From the NCBI GenBank assembly GCA_016208305.1, contig JACQYI010000059.1, positions 1-64,000 on the forward strand: a stretch of 64,000 bases of DNA. Direction: 5' to 3'. Positions 4,364 to 58,557 of this stretch are shown piece by piece. Source of the stretch: Oscillatoriophycideae cyanobacterium NC_groundwater_1537_Pr4_S-0.65um_50_18 (GTDB lineage: Bacteria > Cyanobacteriota > Cyanobacteriia > Elainellales > Elainellaceae). The position numbers and the translations under genes are program-made. Every line of letters starts with the position of its first letter. Within the stretch, counting starts at the first letter, position 1. The notes under the pieces are model-generated. The model was not told the origin of the DNA. It ran no database searches and was given only the letters and a program-made list of their open reading frames with translations.

Positions 4364-5650
4364 TTAAGGAATATTAGAGGCAGTTTCTAGGTTAAACAGC
4401 GTTTGCAACGTTTGCATCGCGTGCCGCCGAGCTTCAATATCCTGCTGGGCGCGCAACTGCACCATAGGGTCATGCAAGATTTTGTTGACGATGCCGCGCG
4501 TCAGAGCCTCAATGATTTCTTGATGCTTTTCACCAAACTCTGATCCGAGCCGAGACAGCGCTTTTTCTAACTCCTGAGTGCGGATCGTTTCAATTTTATT
4601 GCGGAGGCTGCTAATCGTAGAGACGGTTTCGAGCGATCGCCACCACACATCAAACGCCTCAACTTCCTCATCTAAAATGCCTTCAGCTTCCATTGCCATT
4701 TGGCGACGGCTTTCCTGGTTTTGCGCCACGACCGCTTTGAGGTCATCCACATTAAAGGCGTAGACGTTGTGTAAATCGTTAACGTCAGAATGGACGTTGC
4801 GCGGCACCGCAATATCAAACAGCATCAGAGAACAATGTGCTTCGATCGCTCCCTCTAGCTTGGCGCGATCGAGCAGAGGTTCCGTAGCGGCTGTGGCGGT
4901 AAACACCAGATCGGAAGTCGAAATCACCTCCATCATGTCGGCCAGGGTGTGGAGCTGAAGCTCTACATCTTTAAACTGCTGAGCCAATTCCCGTGCACCT
5001 TCGATCGATCGATTCACCACGCAGATCTGCGTTGCCCCTTTAGAGAGCAAATGCTGCACGACCAAACGCGACATTTTGCCCGCACCCAGAACGGTGACTC
5101 GGCAAGCCGATAGGTTTTGGACTTTCAGTGCCGCCAGCTCGACGGCAGCCGAGCTAATCGAAACTGCGCCAGTGCCAATGCTGGTTTCAGTTCTAACCCG
5201 CTTTCCGGCGGTAAGAGCCTGCTTAAAGAGCTGGTTAAGGATGCGCCCGACGCCGTTATATTGCTGCCCAACCTTGTGAGTATGCTTCACCTGCGCCAGA
5301 ATTTGCCCTTCGCCCAAGACCAGGCTATCTAGCCCTGCCGATACCCGCATCATGTGCATGACGGCATCCTGGTGCAGCAGGGTAAACAGATAGGGGCGGA
5401 GCTGATGGACGAGCAATTTGCCGTATTCTGCCAAGAATTGCGTTACTTCCCGCACGCCAGGCTCTGTTTCGCTTGTGACGACATAGACCTCCAAACGGTT
5501 GCAGGTGCTGAGAATGGCGGCTTCTTCAATATGGGGATAGCTGCAAAGATGAGCGATCGCAGCTTCCATTTGCGGGGTGGGAATGCTGAGCTTTTCGCGC
5601 ACTTCCACCGGGGCTGTTTTGTGACTCAGACCCACAACAACAATATTCAT
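4364..5650 (-). CDS. hemA: Glutamyl-tRNA reductase
   Basis: Catalyses the NADPH-dependent reduction of glutamyl-tRNA(Glu) to glutamate-1-semialdehyde, the first committed and most regulated step of tetrapyrrole synthesis (haem, chlorophyll, phycobilins). The 428-residue product opens [20 protein letters not shown]; the catalytic Cys50 is in [11 protein letters not shown]. The NADPH-binding domain ([10 protein letters not shown], ~190) and the C-terminal dimerisation helix follow. A TTG 12 bases upstream is open too, but the ATG at 5650 has GGGAGG 5-6 bases before it and gives the family-typical N-terminus. No neighbour appears to be in an operon with it. Confidence 0.97.
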
Positions 5651-6121
5651 TCGTCCTCCCAAACGATTTTCTCTTTGTGCAGCGCTGCTTTCGGGTCGCC
5701 CTTACGGCAGCGTAAATCAGCTTTTATCGAATGATTTGCACAGTTGACATGAATAAACTTGGCAATAAACCTGGTATCTCTTATCTCTGGCATCTAAAGC
5801 CGCACCGATTAACCGAGCCTTGACTCAAACTATCGGTACAGAGTTCGGTATAGGGAAAGTCTACCAATTCGAGAGAGCCTGTAGAGAAACCGAGCGGGTC
5901 TGGAGTGGGGGCGATCGCGTAAATTTTTATGAATTCGACCTTTTGCAACCCAAAGGACTGGGGAGACGTTACCTGCAACGCCTCCCCGTCCTTCTATTGC
6001 CTCTTTCCTGGTATTGCCTAAAATTTCATCGATAAAATCAGCAACACCTTTTCGCCTTAATCTATCTTTGCCTTAATCTAGCGAATCTAACGGATCTGCA
6101 TAGGTTAAGGATTGCCAGAGA
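5651..6121. other. Intergenic region between hemA and glpX
   Basis: About 470 bases with no convincing gene; small open frames on both strands here overlap each other and have no recognisable product. It must hold the hemA promoter. A hairpin at about 5956-5990 (GGGGAG..CTCCCC with inner CGTT..AACG) lies downstream of glpX and could act as its terminator, though no strong T run follows. Confidence 0.5.
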
Positions 6122-7162
6122 TTAATAGCTTAACTGCACAGACTTAGGCTCTTTGAGCATGTGGATCGTTTCTACAAATCGAGCCGTCTTGGACTGGTTG
6201 GAAATTACCAAACTGTGAGTCCGAGAGCCACCCTTAAAGAAGCGCACGCCCTTCATGAGCGTCCCGGAGGTAATGCCACAGCCCGCAAATAGCACCGTTT
6301 GACCCGAAGCCAATTCCTCAGCTTCATAGACGCGATCGGGGTCGGTAATGCCCATAGAAGTCAATCGCTCGATGTTGGCCTCTTTGCTTTCACCAATTAG
6401 CCCTGTTTTGACGATCGCCGGATCGTAGATCAGCTGTCCTTGGAAATGTCCGCCCATACAGCGCATGGCTGCTGCGGAAATCACGCCCTCTGGTGCTGCG
6501 CCGATGCCCATGAGCGCATGGACGTTAGTGCCTTCAAAGGCGCAGGAGATAGCTGCCGACACATCACCATCTGAGATCAGGCGGACTCTGGCTCCTGCTT
6601 CCCGGATTTCTTTGATCAAGTCATTGTGGCGATCGCGCTTCATGACGATGACCATCAGTTCATCAATCGGGCGATCGAGACATTCCGACAAAATCTTCAG
6701 GTTTTCGGTGGCAGATTTGCGAATATCGACTTTGCCTTTAGCTGCCGGAGGAGCCGCCAGTTTGTTCATGTAAAAGTCGGGTGCGGCGAAGAGTCCACCC
6801 TTCTCGGAAATGGCAAGCACAGCCATAGAACCAGGCTGACCATAGGCGCAAAGGTTGGTGCCTTCACAAGGGTCAACAGCAATGTCAATCTCAACCAGCT
6901 CATCGGGGTTACAGTAAGCCTTGGCATCCTCACGGGTACAAATGCCCACTTCTTCACCGATGTACAGCATGGGCGCATCGTCCCGCTCGCCTTCACCAAT
7001 CACGATGCGACCACGCATGTGAATCTTGTTCATCCGCTCTCGCATAGCTTCTACTGCCACGCGATCCGCTTCATTCTTGTCGCCCTTGCCCATCAAATGA
7101 GCCGAAGCGATCGCTGCTTGCTCAACCACTTCAATGATTTCTAAACCGAGCGTGCTTTCCAC
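6122..7162 (-). CDS. glpX: Class 2 fructose-1,6-/sedoheptulose-1,7-bisphosphatase
   Basis: The cyanobacterial bifunctional F/SBPase of the Calvin cycle and gluconeogenesis, removing the C1 phosphate of FBP and SBP in the cytosol. The 346-residue product begins [15 protein letters not shown] and shows the metal-binding motifs [11 protein letters not shown] and VDPCEGT, and [10 protein letters not shown]. The frame stays open upstream, but a GTG at 7162 has GGAGGG 8 bases before it and reproduces the usual family start, so it is chosen over the TTG at 7177. Highly conserved throughout, with no odd residue noticed. Confidence 0.97.
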
Positions 7163-7330
7163 CGGATTACCCTCCAACTGCTGATTTTGCGTCGTTTTGC
7201 GGACTACGCTTCGTACAAAAGTTTATCAGAATTGGGGATCACGATTTCATCTGCTCGATCGGATCGCGCCAAATCACCCCAACCGATCGCAAAATAAAGT
7301 TCCCCCACTCTCTTCCCTCTCCCCCTCCCC

Positions 7331-7882
7331 ATGCTCCTCCCTCCCTCTTCGCTCCACCTTCTCCAAGAAATTTTGGCAAACTCTCCCGTGGGCGAAGTCT
7401 TACCTGCGATCGCTCAGCTCAACTTACCCGACTGGTGGCTAGCCGGAGGCGCAGTGCGAAACACCGTCTGGCGATCGCTATTGGGCGAGACTTGCCAACT
7501 GGGAATTAAGGATTTTGACATCGCTTTTTTTGATGCCACAGGCGATCGCCAGCAGGAGCTAGAGGCAAAAGCGATCTTAACGGCTCGCTATCCCCACTAT
7601 CTGTTTGATGTCAAAAATCAGGCGAGCTTTGCCCGCTGGCGATCGGGACGGCAAACCTACAACAGTACTGAGGCGGGCATTAGCGATTGGCTGCATACTG
7701 CGACGGCTGTAGGCGTGCGGCTAGAGGCAGACACCTGGCAGTTTTTCACGCCCTATGGCCTAGAGGATTTGTTTGCAGGAGTCGTTCGCCCTACGCCAGC
7801 TCACGTAGGTGATCCGATCGCTCAGCAAAAAGCAGATTCGTTTCTGCAAAAATGTCCTAACCTCACGCTGGCTGCTAATTAA
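7331..7882 (+). CDS. Nucleotidyltransferase-family protein (NTP_transf_6-like)
   Basis: A 183-residue protein with the pol-beta-like nucleotidyltransferase pattern: GGAVRNTVW followed by the metal-binding pair in KDFDIAFFD, then the FARWRSG block. This matches the small family of YP_/COG3575-type nucleotidyltransferases of unknown substrate. The ATG at 7331 directly follows a C/T-rich stretch with no clear ribosome binding site, so the start is not secure. It ends inside the last 8 bases of the convergent hydrolase gene. Confidence 0.75.
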   Translation: MLLPPSSLHLLQEILANSPVGEVLPAIAQLNLPDWWLAGGAVRNTVWRSLLGETCQLGIKDFDIAFFDATGDRQQELEAKAILTARYPHYLFDVKNQASFARWRSGRQTYNSTEAGISDWLHTATAVGVRLEADTWQFFTPYGLEDLFAGVVRPTPAHVGDPIAQQKADSFLQKCPNLTLAAN

Positions 7883-8918
7883 ACCATTCCAAAACGCGAT
7901 TCCAGGCCCACCAGATGTCAGGGTCTTTGGCTTGCTGCTGACAGGCTTTGCTGCTGATGTAGCCCACATGGCCCCCATGCTCGGTCACAACCAAATCGAT
8001 CGCCGGATTCTGGGCGCAGGCATCTTCTAGATCGGGGACGATCGTCGGGTCAAACATGGGGTCATCGGCGGCATACAAAATCAGCGTGGGTTTAGCAAAC
8101 GTATCAAGCTGATAAAGAGGACTGCTGGCTTTGTAATAGTCCCCAACAGTCGCAAAGCCTAGCTTGCCGATGACCAATTCCTCATCAAACGTCCAAATGT
8201 TGTGAACGCGACTCAGGGCTGCCGGATCGATCGCCCCAGGATGACATTCACTGATCCGATCCGCCAGAATTCTCAGCTGCTTGGTGATGGCCTGATCGAG
8301 CGATCGGCCAATCGCGCTTTTGTCCAGATAGCTCAAAGAGCGCTGAGATTCCAGGCTAGGACAAATAGCGGCTCCCCCAGCAATTTCTGATTCTGCTAAG
8401 CCCAAGTCGCTGCCCCAAGTTGCCACGGTTTGTGCTGACTTGATCGCCCACAGCGCCAACTGCCCGCCCAGAGAATAGCCCGTAAACCAAAAAGGTGCCG
8501 GACAGCCCATTGCCTTAGCTTTTGCAGCAATGCGGACAAAATCCTCTCCCTCATACAAACCATCTGAGGTGAGGGTGGGCGACAGCTCAGCCGTTTTGCC
8601 ATGCGCCCGCCAGTCAAAGAGAACGATCGCGTAGCCCTGAGCAAACGCCTTGCGCCCCAAAATCTTGAGGAACCACTGGTTGTCGAGATCGCCTGTAATG
8701 CCGTAAGTTGCGACGATCGTGCCTCTGGGGTTTTGAGGAATCGCCACTTTACCAAAAATGGGTACGTCCTCTGCCCCCACAAAAACTTGAGGCTGATAGT
8801 CTGGCTCTGGCTCAGCAATATGCTTCTCCCAGGTTTGGCTCATCTTGAGGGCGACATGCAGGGTCATCGCTAGACCATTTTGCAGACTCCAAGGAGGACT
8901 GTAGGAAAATTGATGCAT
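7875..8918 (-). CDS. YheT-type alpha/beta hydrolase
   Basis: A 347-residue alpha/beta hydrolase. The oxyanion strand is GTIVATYGITGD, the nucleophile Ser is in GYSLGGQLALWA, and the acid and base look to be the Asp in DDPMFDP and His in EHGGHVGY. This arrangement and length fit the YheT/ABHD1-3 family of medium-chain esterases with unknown physiological substrates. An ATG further in (MTLHVALKM) is possible, but the 8918 ATG is kept. Convergent overlap of 8 bases with the nucleotidyltransferase gene. Confidence 0.85.
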   Translation of the reverse strand: MHQFSYSPPWSLQNGLAMTLHVALKMSQTWEKHIAEPEPDYQPQVFVGAEDVPIFGKVAIPQNPRGTIVATYGITGDLDNQWFLKILGRKAFAQGYAIVLFDWRAHGKTAELSPTLTSDGLYEGEDFVRIAAKAKAMGCPAPFWFTGYSLGGQLALWAIKSAQTVATWGSDLGLAESEIAGGAAICPSLESQRSLSYLDKSAIGRSLDQAITKQLRILADRISECHPGAIDPAALSRVHNIWTFDEELVIGKLGFATVGDYYKASSPLYQLDTFAKPTLILYAADDPMFDPTIVPDLEDACAQNPAIDLVVTEHGGHVGYISSKACQQQAKDPDIWWAWNRVLEWFN

Positions 8919-9010
8919 GGATTAATGGAATGGCAGGGATAAAGGGACGACTTTTTGCAAGGCTTACCCTCAGAAAAAAAGTCGTTTATAAAGTCATTTA
9001 GGGATCAGTC

Positions 9011-53289: not shown

Positions 53290-53655
53290 TTAAACCTGGG
53301 GGTCAAACCGAGTCCGAAAACTACCGTATTTCAACCAATACTGTTTCAAATTATGGCAAGGTGTGTGCAAACTCGCTTTGGCTTGATACAAAACGACTTG
53401 ACGATGATCCCCCATCCAAATTTTGCTAGTAGGCTCAACGGTAATCACCGAGCCGCCTAGCGCCGTGACACAATCGCCAAAGCGATCGACTGCGCTATAG
53501 TCTACAGTCTCAAAAACAAAAAAATTACCTGAGCAGATTAAATGCCGACTCCGAATCCAGCACTGCATTTTTTTCTGTGCTTCTGGGGGCAGCATCTTGG
53601 CTTCAATAGATTCCAGTTGGGATATGGAAATGTCACAGGATAGCTGGGACTTCAT
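53290..53655 (-). CDS. cpeR: Phycoerythrin operon activator CpeR
   Basis: A 121-residue cytosolic protein, last gene of the cpeCDESTR order. In Fremyella diplosiphon CpeR is required for expression of cpeBA (phycoerythrin subunits). No classical DNA-binding motif is seen; the visible pattern is an alpha/beta domain with SAVDRFGDCVTALGGSVITVE and a basic, aromatic tail (HNLKQYWLKYGSFRTRF). The assignment rests on length, position and remembered family pattern. The ATG at 53655 lies inside the end of cpeT (23-base overlap), suggesting coupling. An alternative upstream start at 53694 would lengthen it by 13 residues. Confidence 0.85.
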   Translation of the reverse strand: MKSQLSCDISISQLESIEAKMLPPEAQKKMQCWIRSRHLICSGNFFVFETVDYSAVDRFGDCVTALGGSVITVEPTSKIWMGDHRQVVLYQAKASLHTPCHNLKQYWLKYGSFRTRFDPQV

Positions 53656-54250
53656 GGGCGAAACTCTCTCGCTTTTCAAACCGTAAAGGGCCAAAAGTCG
53701 ATCCCCAAACCTGCTGATGTGTATTGATATCTAAGCCTTTGTCTAGGCTGACCCAAGTCGTCTCTGTGACTTCAACGGCACTGTCTAGATAGGTCTGACA
53801 GCCATTCTTCTCAATCAAACAAAGATTTCCAGGTTCTACACTGCCGCGAAACAGGTTGCCCTCTCGTTTAAAAACCATAGAGCAGTGATAGCGGCGATCG
53901 ATGCAGTCTGGGGTAATGGTTTTTAGAATGTTGAGATCACGAGCCGATCCGGCGTAGTAAATCGCATTTTTTAAGCTGTAGTTTTCGATATAAATGTGAT
54001 CGCCTTGGTCAACGAGCCGATGCACGCCTTGCCGATAGGGTCGCCACAAATCATAGTCGTAGACCTGCTCTGAGTAGAGTCCGATACCTGAGAAAAACTC
54101 AAACGGCAGGGGACGAAAAAAAACGTGAATATGGGCGTAATCTCTGGAGTTTTCCTGCGCCTGTTTGGCATTGCTAAAATCTCCTGCCATCCAGCGCGCC
54201 AGCGTCACCAAATCATTTGAGGTATCAGCAATAGGTGGTAAAGAGGTCAT
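53633..54250 (-). CDS. cpeT: Phycoerythrin chromophore lyase CpeT (CpcT/CpeT family)
   Basis: A 205-residue chromophore lyase of the CpcT/CpeT fold, attaching a bilin to the beta-subunit Cys near position 153-165 of phycobiliproteins. Recognised by DLVTLARWMAGDFSN, HIHVFFRPLPFEFFSGIG, YSEQVYDYDLWRPYRQGVH and CSMVFKREGNLFRGSVEPG. In this operon the likely target is phycoerythrin beta (CpeB). 32 bases separate it from cpeS, and it overlaps cpeR. GAAAGGG precedes the ATG at 54250. Confidence 0.95.
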   Translation of the reverse strand: MTSLPPIADTSNDLVTLARWMAGDFSNAKQAQENSRDYAHIHVFFRPLPFEFFSGIGLYSEQVYDYDLWRPYRQGVHRLVDQGDHIYIENYSLKNAIYYAGSARDLNILKTITPDCIDRRYHCSMVFKREGNLFRGSVEPGNLCLIEKNGCQTYLDSAVEVTETTWVSLDKGLDINTHQQVWGSTFGPLRFEKRESFAHEVPAIL

Positions 54251-54282: not shown

Positions 54283-54816
54283 CTACGTCTCAACTTCTTG
54301 ACGGATTTCCGAAGAAAACGAAGCCGTCACCACTCCCGTACCTGCACTGGTTTTGATAAGAGACACCCGGCAACGGACATTAGGATTGACAAACCAGATC
54401 TTCTCTTCGGCAGCCGCGCGATCGTATGCGGTTGTCAGCACAAACGTGCCGTCTTCTGTGAGGTAGTAGTCCCCAACAGCGGCGATCGTTTCTGCATAAC
54501 CCTGATCTCGCAGCAGCTTGCCGCGTTTGGCGTGATGGGGGTCAGGGACAGGCACTAACACACAGTCTCCCTTCACAACCTCACTGTCTTCCCAATCCGA
54601 CTGACCTTCCCAACTCATGCGAAATGGCGAAACGGCAGTTTTAACATCCACTTCGTAAGCTTTACAGAGTTCAATCACAGCGGGATCATCCAAGGAGAGA
54701 GAGACAATGTCAATCTCAGACTGCACAGCTTCAAAATGACCGAACGCCAAGTGATGGGCGCTGCGCTGCGATCGCCAACGCCCGATCGAATTTTCAACAA
54801 ACTCCGTAATATCCAT
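54283..54816 (-). CDS. cpeS: Phycoerythrin chromophore lyase CpeS (CpcS/CpeS family)
   Basis: A 177-residue lipocalin-like lyase that adds the chromophore (phycoerythrobilin here) to the conserved central Cys-82/84 of phycobiliproteins. Recognised by SIGRWRSQRSAHHLAF near the start, DCVLVPVPDP, YYLTEDGTFVLTTAYD and EEKIWFVNPNVRCRVS. Position in the cpe operon indicates PE beta Cys82. It is separated from cpeE by a 227-base spacer containing a hairpin and a repeat element. Whether it is CpeS or the CpcS/CpcU type is decided here by context. Confidence 0.9.
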   Translation of the reverse strand: MDITEFVENSIGRWRSQRSAHHLAFGHFEAVQSEIDIVSLSLDDPAVIELCKAYEVDVKTAVSPFRMSWEGQSDWEDSEVVKGDCVLVPVPDPHHAKRGKLLRDQGYAETIAAVGDYYLTEDGTFVLTTAYDRAAAEEKIWFVNPNVRCRVSLIKTSAGTGVVTASFSSEIRQEVET

Positions 54817-55043: not shown

Positions 55044-55799
55044 CTAAGCGACTTCCGTGATGCTCAAAATTTTACCGCCTGTCTTTTGAATGCTGCGGAT
55101 CTTTTGAGAAAGCTGGCTGTAGCTCACCTCAAAAGTGGCAGCACTTTGGGTAACACGGGCAAAGTTTGCTTTAGAGACTGCAATCCGGAAACGCTTGCCT
55201 GTGTTGCTGTAAGCTCCAGAACCGTTGCTAGGAGACACAATCTTAGTGGGCAAGTTGCCGCCCAAATCGCTAATCAGCCTAGCCGCTTTACCTGCATCAT
55301 GGGCAGCAAATCCGCGACTCAGCGCAAAGGTGCGGTTAAACCCAACATTCTTGATACCCGCCTGGGTTTGATTGCCGCGCGTATAAGGCACCACATTGTT
55401 GCCAAAGCTGGTCGTGTACTCATCACTACCAATGTAGGAATCAATCTCAGCTTCGTACCCTTGCGTGTTGTAAGTGTACACATGCTCGGCAATTTCAGCC
55501 TGATCCTGTGGAGCACGACCCAAGAGATGCTTAAAATTCAGCTCAATAAAGCGATAGGGAGAAGATGTTTCAAAAAAGAGAGAACGGTAGAGATCAGACT
55601 GAGCCACAGCTCGGACAAACCCTACAACATCAATGTCACCATTCCGCAACTGCGACTCTGCACTGATGAGCCGCTGATTGTCTAACACATGAGCATTGCC
55701 CAAAACTTGCCGATAGACCGCTCGAATCACGGTCTGCAAATCATCTTCAGTTGCGTTGGGACGTAACTCAACAGCTTCTGTTTCCACCCAAAGTGCCAT
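55044..55799 (-). CDS. cpeE: Phycoerythrin rod linker CpeE
   Basis: A 251-residue phycobilisome rod linker for phycoerythrin hexamers. The N-terminal PBS_linker_poly domain (~20-150: [69 protein letters not shown]) sits in one hexamer and the C-terminal CpcD-like domain (~200-250, [19 protein letters not shown]) joins the next. Sequence blocks fit the CpeE of F. diplosiphon best among CpeC/D/E. Third gene of the operon; 100 bases after cpeD. Confidence 0.9.
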
Positions 55800-55899: not shown

Positions 55900-56649
55900 T
55901 TAGGCAATTTCGGTGATGCTGATGATCTTGCCCGAAGTGCGGTTAATTCGCTGAATTTGAGGCGTCATTTTGCTGGCTGAGACAATGTACTCAGTCGCGC
56001 TGACCCGGCGAGGGCTATCAAACTTTGACCCTGCCACCAAAATTTTGAACCGTTTTTCGGTGCCAGAACCAATCACCGTAGCTGTAGAGGGCTTGATTTC
56101 AGTGGCGCTGTTGGTAGCAACGGCATAGACCAACTGAGAAGCCTGCACAGCACTGTCGATTTGAGCTGGGCCACGATCGATCGCAAAAATGCGGTTGTAG
56201 CCAACTTGCTTAGCATTCGCTTCGCTGCTCTTGCCGCGAGAGTAGGGAACGACGTTTTCGCCAAAGGCGGCCTGATACTCATCGCTATCGATATAGGAAT
56301 CGATTTCAGCTTCGTAGCCTTCGGCCACACAGCGGACGATGTGCTCAGAAACCTCTCTTTGATCCTGGGGGGCACGACCTAGCAAATGTAGAAAGTTGAG
56401 TTCTACAAAGCGGTAGGGGGCGCAAGACTCAAAGTAGCGGCTGCGGTAAAAGTCGGACTTGGCGACCGACCGGACAAATTCACGGACGCTGATGGAGCGA
56501 TCGCACAACTGCGATTCTGCCGTCACCAAACGCTCGCTATCCATCACATGGGGGTTGCCCAAAACCTGCTTGTAAACATTCCGAATGACCGTTTGAACTT
56601 CGTCTAAGCCACTGCCAGCCCAGAGTTCAATAATCGAGGAGGATGCCAT
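55900..56649 (-). CDS. cpeD: Phycoerythrin rod linker CpeD
   Basis: A 249-residue linker of phycoerythrin hexamers with the same two domains as CpeE: PBS linker (~12-145, [63 protein letters not shown]) and CpcD-type (~195-248, KRFKILVAGSKF..KIISITEI). The start MASSSIIELWAG is typical of CpeD. Lies 44 bases after cpeC and 100 before cpeE. AGGAGATAGATTTCA before the ATG provides a ribosome site. Confidence 0.92.
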   Translation of the reverse strand: MASSSIIELWAGSGLDEVQTVIRNVYKQVLGNPHVMDSERLVTAESQLCDRSISVREFVRSVAKSDFYRSRYFESCAPYRFVELNFLHLLGRAPQDQREVSEHIVRCVAEGYEAEIDSYIDSDEYQAAFGENVVPYSRGKSSEANAKQVGYNRIFAIDRGPAQIDSAVQASQLVYAVATNSATEIKPSTATVIGSGTEKRFKILVAGSKFDSPRRVSATEYIVSASKMTPQIQRINRTSGKIISITEIA

Positions 56650-56693: not shown

Positions 56694-57554
56694 CTACACC
56701 ACCGTAATGCTGGCAATCACGCCACCTTGCTGGTGAATCCGCTGATATTCCTGGGACAGTTTTTCGTAAGGCACCAGAAAAACCTGGTTGGCACGACGGA
56801 ACTTGGAAATGTTGTTGAAGGTTTTTGCCCGGTAGCCCGTAACTTCAATCCGGTAGACCTTACCTTCAGCGCCAGCGCCCACACCCAGACGGGTACGAGG
56901 ATCGATAGGGGGTGGAGAGAATGCCGCCCCATCGCTGGCAGGAGAAACCACTGCTTTGGGGGTTTGCTGAATTACAAGAGCGTTGAGCTTAGGAGTCTTG
57001 CCCGACAAATCGCCCTTGAGGCTGCTGCTAGAAGCGCCCCGCACCAGTTGGAAGGTGTGGGTAAACTGCACCATGCTCTGGCAAGCTTCGGTCTTGTAGC
57101 CCCGAATGTAGGGAACGAAGTTTTCGCCAAAGGTGGTTTGATACTCATCGCTATCGATATAGGAATCGATTTCAGCCTCAAATCCTTCAGTATCAAGGAT
57201 TGTGCTGTGCATCCGCATCTCTTCTAAATCCAGCGGCGGACGACCCAGCAAATGCCGGAAGTTAAGTTCGATCGCCCGATAGCGCGCACAGCTTGTGAAA
57301 AAGCGAGAACGGTAAAGCTCAGACTTGGCCACTGCCCGGACAAACTCACGGACGCTATAGGCACCCCGCTTAAACTGAGATTCTGGAACAACGAGACGTT
57401 CGCTTTCCATGACGTAGGCATTGCCTAGCACCTGGCGATAGACAGCCAAAATGATGATTTCTGCTTCTTCTTGCGAGCGACCGGGCACCCATTCAACGGG
57501 AGGGGTTTCATCAAACAGGCTGACCCCTAAGCGCGAAGCTGGTCCAAAAGCCAT
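56694..57554 (-). CDS. cpeC: Phycoerythrin rod linker CpeC (core-proximal PE linker)
   Basis: A 286-residue linker. The N-terminus MAFGPASRLGVSLFDETPPVEWVPGRSQEEAE is the CpeC signature, followed by the linker domain (~30-155, VREFVRAVAKSELYRSRFF, FRHLLGRPPLDLEEM) and a longer middle than CpeD/E (~160-230), then a CpcD-like domain ending GVIASITVV. It links the first phycoerythrin hexamer to the phycocyanin rod. First gene of the operon; promoter and an L-box lie upstream. AGGAGATGCTGTGTA precedes the ATG at 57554. Confidence 0.95.
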   Translation of the reverse strand: MAFGPASRLGVSLFDETPPVEWVPGRSQEEAEIIILAVYRQVLGNAYVMESERLVVPESQFKRGAYSVREFVRAVAKSELYRSRFFTSCARYRAIELNFRHLLGRPPLDLEEMRMHSTILDTEGFEAEIDSYIDSDEYQTTFGENFVPYIRGYKTEACQSMVQFTHTFQLVRGASSSSLKGDLSGKTPKLNALVIQQTPKAVVSPASDGAAFSPPPIDPRTRLGVGAGAEGKVYRIEVTGYRAKTFNNISKFRRANQVFLVPYEKLSQEYQRIHQQGGVIASITVV

Positions 57555-57621
57555 TACACAGCATCTCCTGGTTAACGAGAGAGGTTAAGATTGTTTCAAA
57601 ACGTAAAGAAATCTAAGGTTG

Positions 57622-57683
57622 CCCACTCAGATGAATCAGGCTAGTGGGTTGACTGGCTTGAAGCAGAACGGTCAGTTCTCAAG
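57622..57683 (-). promoter_or_regulatory. cpeC 5' leader hairpins
   Basis: In the ~200-base leader: CCCACT/AGTGGG (57622-57648) and CTTGA..GAAC/GTTC..TCAAG (57657-57683). In F. diplosiphon the green-light Cgi pathway acts on the cpeC leader after transcription starts. No U-run follows either stem, so attenuation here is a hypothesis. Confidence 0.35.
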
Positions 57684-57757
57684 CAAATCATCCTAATTTC
57701 CGAATGTTCAAGCTTTTTAGACAGGTTAGTTTTATACGCTTTGTTATGATTGATTTT

Positions 57758-57785
57758 CTTATAAGGGCGTAACACTGAATGTCAA
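57758..57785 (-). promoter_or_regulatory. Predicted cpeC promoter
   Basis: TTGACA (57785-57780) and TATAAG (57763-57758), 16 bases apart, on the reverse strand and about 205 bases upstream of cpeC. An 8-base perfect inverted repeat TCAAGATT-CATA-AATCTTGA (57782-57801) overlaps the -35 box. Confidence 0.65.
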
Positions 57786-57817
57786 GATTCATAAATCTTG
57801 ATGGAATATACAATATT

Positions 57818-57835
57818 TTGCACGCGCTTTGCACA
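57818..57835 (+). promoter_or_regulatory. RcaC L-box upstream of cpeC
   Basis: TTGCACG-CGCT-TTGCACA at 57818-57835 matches the L-box TTGCACA-N4-TTGCACA at 13 of 14 fixed positions (only the seventh base differs). It lies on the strand opposite to cpeC transcription and ~33 bases upstream of the predicted -35. RcaC, the response regulator of type III chromatic acclimation, binds this element. Confidence 0.8.
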
Positions 57836-57879: not shown

Positions 57880-58557
57880 CTAGCGTTCTTTGGGCATCGC
57901 AGATTCCAAGGCAGCCGCAACGACGTAGTGATTGGGATCTTGCTGGAGCTTTGTCAAAATTAACTGTGCCTGCGGGTCAGAGGTTCGGGTCAGAGCTGTA
58001 GCGGCTCTCCAGCGATCGCGCCAAAACTCTGCCTGCGCCAGTGCCGTCAGTAGGGTCAGTGCCTCAGCATGAAAAGGGCGATCGAGCAGATTCCCTAGCG
58101 CCAAAATGCCCGTTTCTTTGACCGTCTGGGTTTCATCCTGTAACGCCTCGCGGATGACGGCCAGCAGCACCTCATCTTGATCGCTCTCCATCAAAATTGA
58201 GAGAATCGTTTGCCGAGTGAGCCAGTGGCGATGGCGCTGAAACAACTGCTGGAGGAGTGGAACAGATTTCTCGCCAAACTCAAACAGCGAATTGGCAATT
58301 TCTGCCAGCACGTTATCGTCGGTTTCTCGTGCCAGCAGGTCTTTGAGCACCTGGAACGAAGTGTCTGTGCGATGGTTGCCTAAGCCCATGACCGCTAGGC
58401 GACGGCAGAGAAAATCTGGCTCAGCCGCCAGCCGCTGAAGGATCGGGATGGCCAACTCAGAGGGGGCTTGTGCCAATTCATCCAGAGCGGCTTTGCGCTG
58501 ATCGAGGGCAGGCGATCGCAGAGAAGATTCAAGCTGAGTCAGGCGATCGGCATCCAT
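57880..58557 (-). CDS. HEAT-repeat protein (NblB/CpcE-related)
   Basis: A 225-residue all-helical protein of HEAT/phycocyanobilin-lyase-type repeats (~6 units, for example LAIPILQRLAAEPDFLCRRLAVMGLGNHRTD and RDRWRAATALTRTSD). The CpcE/CpeY/NblB group acts in bilin attachment or phycobilisome breakdown; this one cannot be assigned to any, and it lacks a CpcF-like partner. Lies 325 bases upstream of cpeC on the same strand, with the cpeC promoter in between. Confidence 0.82.
   Translation of the reverse strand: MDADRLTQLESSLRSPALDQRKAALDELAQAPSELAIPILQRLAAEPDFLCRRLAVMGLGNHRTDTSFQVLKDLLARETDDNVLAEIANSLFEFGEKSVPLLQQLFQRHRHWLTRQTILSILMESDQDEVLLAVIREALQDETQTVKETGILALGNLLDRPFHAEALTLLTALAQAEFWRDRWRAATALTRTSDPQAQLILTKLQQDPNHYVVAAALESAMPKER

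Follow-up and report, generated by a model that had tools for sequence, protein, structure and literature searches.

The sequence at positions 57818-57835 of the window (the whole 64,000-nucleotide stretch of DNA analysed here, part of contig C54 of a 6.94 Mb genome) is, with high confidence, a predicted RcaC-binding L-box of the phycoerythrin operon cpeCDESTR, at which phosphorylated RcaC would repress transcription in red light during type III chromatic acclimation (CA3). This type of regulatory switch is already known from other strains and the site is a well-conserved new example of it; the direction of phosphorylation, the binding and the repression would follow the pattern established in Fremyella diplosiphon and Synechococcus PCC 7335. 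What is new is that RcaC, as we infer, contacts the promoter region from one fixed side of the DNA helix. In addition, a single promoter predicts a full CA3 strain in a filamentous cyanobacterium related to Drouetiella.

The L-box, promoter and leader of cpeC

The plus-strand sequence TTGCACGCGCTTTGCACA, which reads TTGCACG-CGCT-TTGCACA, agrees with the L-box TTGCACA-N4-TTGCACA at 13 of 14 positions, the sole mismatch being G instead of A as the seventh base of the first half-site, and is the only match with at most two mismatches in the 64 kb window. It lies in the gap between the ORF of a HEAT-repeat protein (57880-58557, minus strand; a weak NblB match, below the cut-off) and cpeC, 264-281 bp upstream of the cpeC ATG at 57554, and is inverted with respect to this minus-strand gene. 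A preliminary description had proposed this site, with the same number of matching positions, and had placed it near a predicted cpeC promoter in reverse orientation; coordinates and sequence proved exact, the site is indeed inverted, and TTGACA-16 bp-TATAAG lies downstream of it. The promoter was read directly from the sequence (minus strand, 57785-57780 and 57763-57758); it escaped a simple sigma-70 scan, since TATAAG does not end in T. Transcription probably starts near 57751. The complete gene order cpeCDESTR is present on the minus strand, including a predicted CpeR that is 77-87% identical to the correspondingly placed ORF of the closest relatives listed and matched no HMM family. The features are as follows.

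57818..57835, plus strand: predicted RcaC-binding L-box TTGCACG-N4-TTGCACA, opposite in orientation to cpeC and likewise positioned in other genomes
57782..57801, no strand assigned: conserved inverted repeat TCAAGATT-TATG-AATCTTGA, between L-box and -35 and overlapping the -35
57780..57785, minus strand: predicted -35 TTGACA of the cpeC promoter, from the sequence and a constant 22-nt offset to the -10 in correctly anchored aligned promoters
57758..57763, minus strand: predicted -10 TATAAG of the cpeC promoter, from the sequence; conserved
57555..57756, minus strand: 5' leader of cpeC, about 200 nt, modestly structured by folding
56694..57554, minus strand: cpeC, phycoerythrin rod linker, 94% identical to Drouetiella hepatica CpeC, with linker and CpcD-type matches
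55900..56649, minus strand: cpeD, phycoerythrin rod linker
55044..55799, minus strand: cpeE, phycoerythrin rod linker
54283..54816, minus strand: cpeS, bilin lyase (Pfam CpeS, 6.7e-62)
53633..54250, minus strand: cpeT, bilin lyase (Pfam CpeT/CpcT, 2.3e-69)
53290..53694, minus strand: predicted cpeR, activator of phycoerythrin genes, 134 aa, from position, size and identity to relatives

The leader bears on the most serious alternative, namely that RcaC does bind but cpeC responds to colour mainly through attenuation in the leader (the Cgi pathway), the L-box serving for fine adjustment. In F. diplosiphon cpeC is under both Rca and Cgi control, and the leader of about 200 nt found here folds better than its shuffled versions (z about -2.2). 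Against this, 12 leaders yielded no conserved consensus structure and single-sequence z-scores span -3.3 to +1.6. A dominant role of attenuation is in our view the less likely reading, but one of appreciable probability. An extra IF3 was considered as a marker of Cgi and discarded as uninformative: the genome contains only one ordinary infC, which neither proves nor excludes the pathway.

Chromatic acclimation genes in the same genome

The components that control of cpeC by RcaC would need are encoded together on contig C46, where rcaE, rcaF, rcaC, pcyA and cpcB2A2 with linkers form one run. RcaC (651 aa) has the domain order receiver, winged helix, Hpt, receiver; aspartates occupy positions 51 and 576, and the Hpt histidine lies in AHKLAGTLG. 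RcaE shows the order PAS-GAF-PAS-HisKA-HATPase; its GAF domain (residues 167-342) matches the solved RcaE GAF 7ckv (1.7e-72) and keeps C253, E222, L254 and K266, which we take to be the bilin cysteine and the protochromic triad. Both pcyA and cpcB2 are preceded by an L-box in gene orientation, with one mismatch at -49 and no mismatch at -241, respectively. Outside this cluster, cpeB is located at C41:715015, and a pair of adjacent genes for further bilin reductases, at C41:203348 and 204234, would be pebA and pebB. With pebAB assigned in this way, the CA3 gene set including cpeBA, cpeCDESTR and pebAB is present. Directly downstream of the two reductases a third cpcBA pair was observed, followed by two ORFs resembling HEAT-repeat lyase subunits (C41:196000-209000, local 5738-8930).

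Red light drives RcaE-RcaF-RcaC phosphorylation, and phospho-RcaC activates pcyA and cpc2 from forward L-boxes and represses a green-light operon from an inverted, more distant one (PMC8256508); the geometry of the putative cpeC L-box fits this orientation rule. By analogy, RcaE would in red light phosphorylate RcaF, which would phosphorylate RcaC, and a phospho-RcaC dimer would occupy both direct half-sites, which are spaced by 11 bp, in inverted orientation and some 70-85 bp ahead of the point where cpeC transcription starts, lowering transcription of cpeCDESTR. The resulting loss of CpeR would lower the other phycoerythrin genes, and the same RcaC on forward-oriented L-boxes would activate pcyA and cpc2. 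Dephosphorylation of RcaC in green light would then release cpeC.

The arrangement thus resembles the RcaC L-box regulon of Fremyella diplosiphon/Tolypothrix PCC 7601 and Synechococcus PCC 7335 in the direct repeat with its 11-bp period, in the orientation of the boxes (forward at pcyA and cpc2, inverted and more distant at a green-light operon; PMC8256508) and in the presence of rcaE-rcaF-rcaC. It differs from the known strains in that rcaEFC, pcyA and cpc2 stand in one cluster, and from the known L-box in that its first half-site ends in G. Moreover, the inverted L-box of PCC 7335 is located at pebAB (PMC8256508), whereas here it is found at cpeC and no TTGCACN-N4-TTGCACA occurs near the pebAB candidates of the genome. 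The CcaS/CcaR system of type II chromatic acclimation (CA2) also controls phycoerythrin-associated linkers by red and green light (PMC9415938), but its regulator and site differ from RcaC and the L-box.

Conservation of the site and its association with rcaC

For comparison, 700 bp upstream of each of 80 cpeC loci from public genomes were analysed. An L-box with at most two mismatches was found in 25 of the 80, every one inverted, and one with at most one mismatch in 22, while 20 permuted motifs, tried on these regions in 1600 tests, never reached one mismatch and reached two in 6 cases. In Drouetiella hepatica, the nearest relative, TTGCACGGGGTTTGCACA stands at exactly -281, and the N4 spacers differ among the more than 20 other genomes sharing the cpeC site. 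When the promoter is set beside those of Drouetiella, Nostoc, Tolypothrix, Calothrix, Elainella and Pseudanabaena, the inverted L-box, the palindrome with the -35, the -10 and the leader start all align. Pseudanabaena SR411, a CA3 strain by pigment measurements (PMC11377992), has its cpeC L-box at -198. Many genomes thus share the L-box at cpeC, which is no peculiarity of Fremyella.

Most cpeC sites have T or G as the seventh and last base of the first half-site, where the pcyA and cpc2 sites have A; in detail, the Nostocales cpeC sites read TTGCACT-N4-TTGCACA. Because T or G is usual at this place in cpeC sites, the mismatch is, judged by the aligned sequences, a feature of the promoter class and not a sign of decay or weakness. 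Some weakening of binding is conceivable, but relatives show the mismatch too.

The palindrome between L-box and -35 has the consensus TCAAGATTTAYAAATCTTGA in relatives, its right arm overlapping the -35, and its exact match is unique to cpeC in the genome under study. It was considered as a regulon-wide operator and rejected, as the other matches in this genome have at least three mismatches and occur at control frequency. Several cpeC promoters that have neither L-box nor rcaC share the right arm, suggesting that the palindrome is older than RcaC control or independent of it.

For the distribution of rcaC, orthologues were accepted at a minimum of 53% identity over the full length, or of 66% over the N-terminal receiver and DNA-binding part, and RcaC paralogues of 38-46% identity were left uncounted. 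By these thresholds, rcaC is present in 21 of the 25 genomes with a cpeC L-box and in 15 of 54 cpeC genomes without one (Fisher p = 5.5e-6, which is optimistic since the genomes are related and hence non-independent). No orthologue was found behind four L-box-positive loci, which belong to three Nostoc genomes (L047, L049 and L082, searched at E <= 1e-100) and one small metagenome-assembled genome, and 15 genomes with rcaC have no cpeC L-box with at most two mismatches. Genome-wide, TTGCACN-N4-TTGCACA occurs 43 times in 16 genomes with rcaC, at least once in each, and once in 12 genomes without an orthologue, the reversed pattern serving as a control with one occurrence across all 28. Most L-boxes in the rcaC-containing genomes precede pcyA, cpcB2 or cpeC. 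The association is therefore strong, although short of absolute.

These data also bear on the remaining statements of the preliminary description. It had named rcaC and further L-boxes at pcyA and cpc2 as what to search for, and the same genome indeed encodes an rcaE-rcaF-rcaC cluster with the right domains, within which pcyA and cpc2 each have an L-box. It had held that an equal frequency of the motif at random sites would speak against a role, and the genome-wide counts with and without rcaC are far from equal. Its view that red/green acclimation is likely for this strain is supported at the sequence level by the gene set, the L-boxes, their conservation and the rcaC association.

A different regulator of the OmpR/PhoB class, either RpaB-like or one of the RcaC paralogues, might occupy the site in place of RcaC. 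Indeed, the genome encodes two RcaC-like proteins of 40-41% identity on C56 and C76, and a neighbouring element, TTTAYAAATCTTGACATT, presumably resembles the HLR1 box of RpaB. However, within the rca cluster the L-box motif also stands before pcyA and cpcB2, its abundance tracks the RcaC orthologue, and paralogues at the 40% level are also found in genomes without L-boxes, all of which makes such a regulator a very improbable occupant.

Least probable of all is a chance or relict match of the 18-mer without any role: some two matches with at most one mismatch are expected per genome, some of those in this genome fall within coding regions, and three Nostoc genomes seem to retain the cpeC site without rcaC, but the expectation in the gap of about 1e-4, the permuted motifs, the co-occurrence with rcaC, the orientation and near-equal distance kept in the sister genome and more than 20 others, and the intact rcaC of this genome all argue against it. 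In detail, the expectation from the composition of the window for at most one mismatch on both strands is 9.6e-5 in the 325-bp gap upstream of cpeC and about 2.2 in 6.94 Mb. Eight such matches were observed in the genome, two of them exact; both exact ones and the sites at cpeC, pcyA and a cpcB gene on contig C47 lie upstream of genes.

Helical spacing and possible further RcaC targets

If RcaC represses cpeC from the inverted L-box, the spacing of the site offers a clue to how. The distance between L-box and -10 is 51, 61-62 or 71-73 bp depending on the lineage, and 72 bp here; the outlier, 85 bp, belongs to Nostoc CHAB 5715, a genome in which the search revealed no rcaC. Compared with random placement, phasing at 10.5 bp is significant at p = 1.5e-4, or at p = 1.3e-3 when only the three cluster centres count as independent, with the distance at locus L076 taken as 61, read by hand. 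These helical steps suggest a same-face contact of RcaC with the polymerase or a neighbouring factor. Slippage by one repeat retains a small chance as the source of the steps, a period of 11 fitting the spacing almost as well as 10.5 bp; it leaves unexplained, however, the Lyngbya HA4199-MV5 locus, in which the L-box is unchanged but the interval from it to the -35 is shorter by 10 bp.

We tentatively put forward a wider proposal, which we consider possible but rather doubtful as a whole: RcaC repression would be face-dependent, the inverted L-box standing whole helical turns from the -10 and RcaC contacting the polymerase or a protein on the palindrome at 57782-57801, and the regulon would reach a cell-surface glycan operon on contig C49. 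The helical spacing rule offers a cheap and direct test of how one regulator activates or represses according to orientation and distance.

The evidence for this glycan operon is an exact L-box with a third half-site at the same 11-bp period, inverted, at C49:149811-149839 (C49:141000-159000, local 8812-8840), 251-279 bp before an operon of an RfbH-like aminotransferase and a glycosyltransferase. No close RfbH-like homologue (E <= 1e-100) was found in 16 relatives with rcaC, and the operon as a target of RcaC is only a suggestion. On C47, a second cpcBA operon is preceded at a distance of 354 bp by an L-box with one mismatch that points the same way as the genes (C47:96000-106000, local 4927-4944; cpcB at 5281). 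The closest relatives of this operon, in Elainella saxicola and Elainella Prado103, have similar L-boxes at -348 and -383, suggesting that it may be a second red-light phycocyanin operon.

Two observations were made in other genomes. An inverted L-box stands about 107 bp before a gene with GAF and PHY domains in three Nostocales genomes (G256, G250 and G246), possibly a further RcaC target. In Leptolyngbyaceae CSU_1_3, tandem L-boxes with three half-sites are located 58 bp before a Crr6-family gene (G249:C40:7606-7634).
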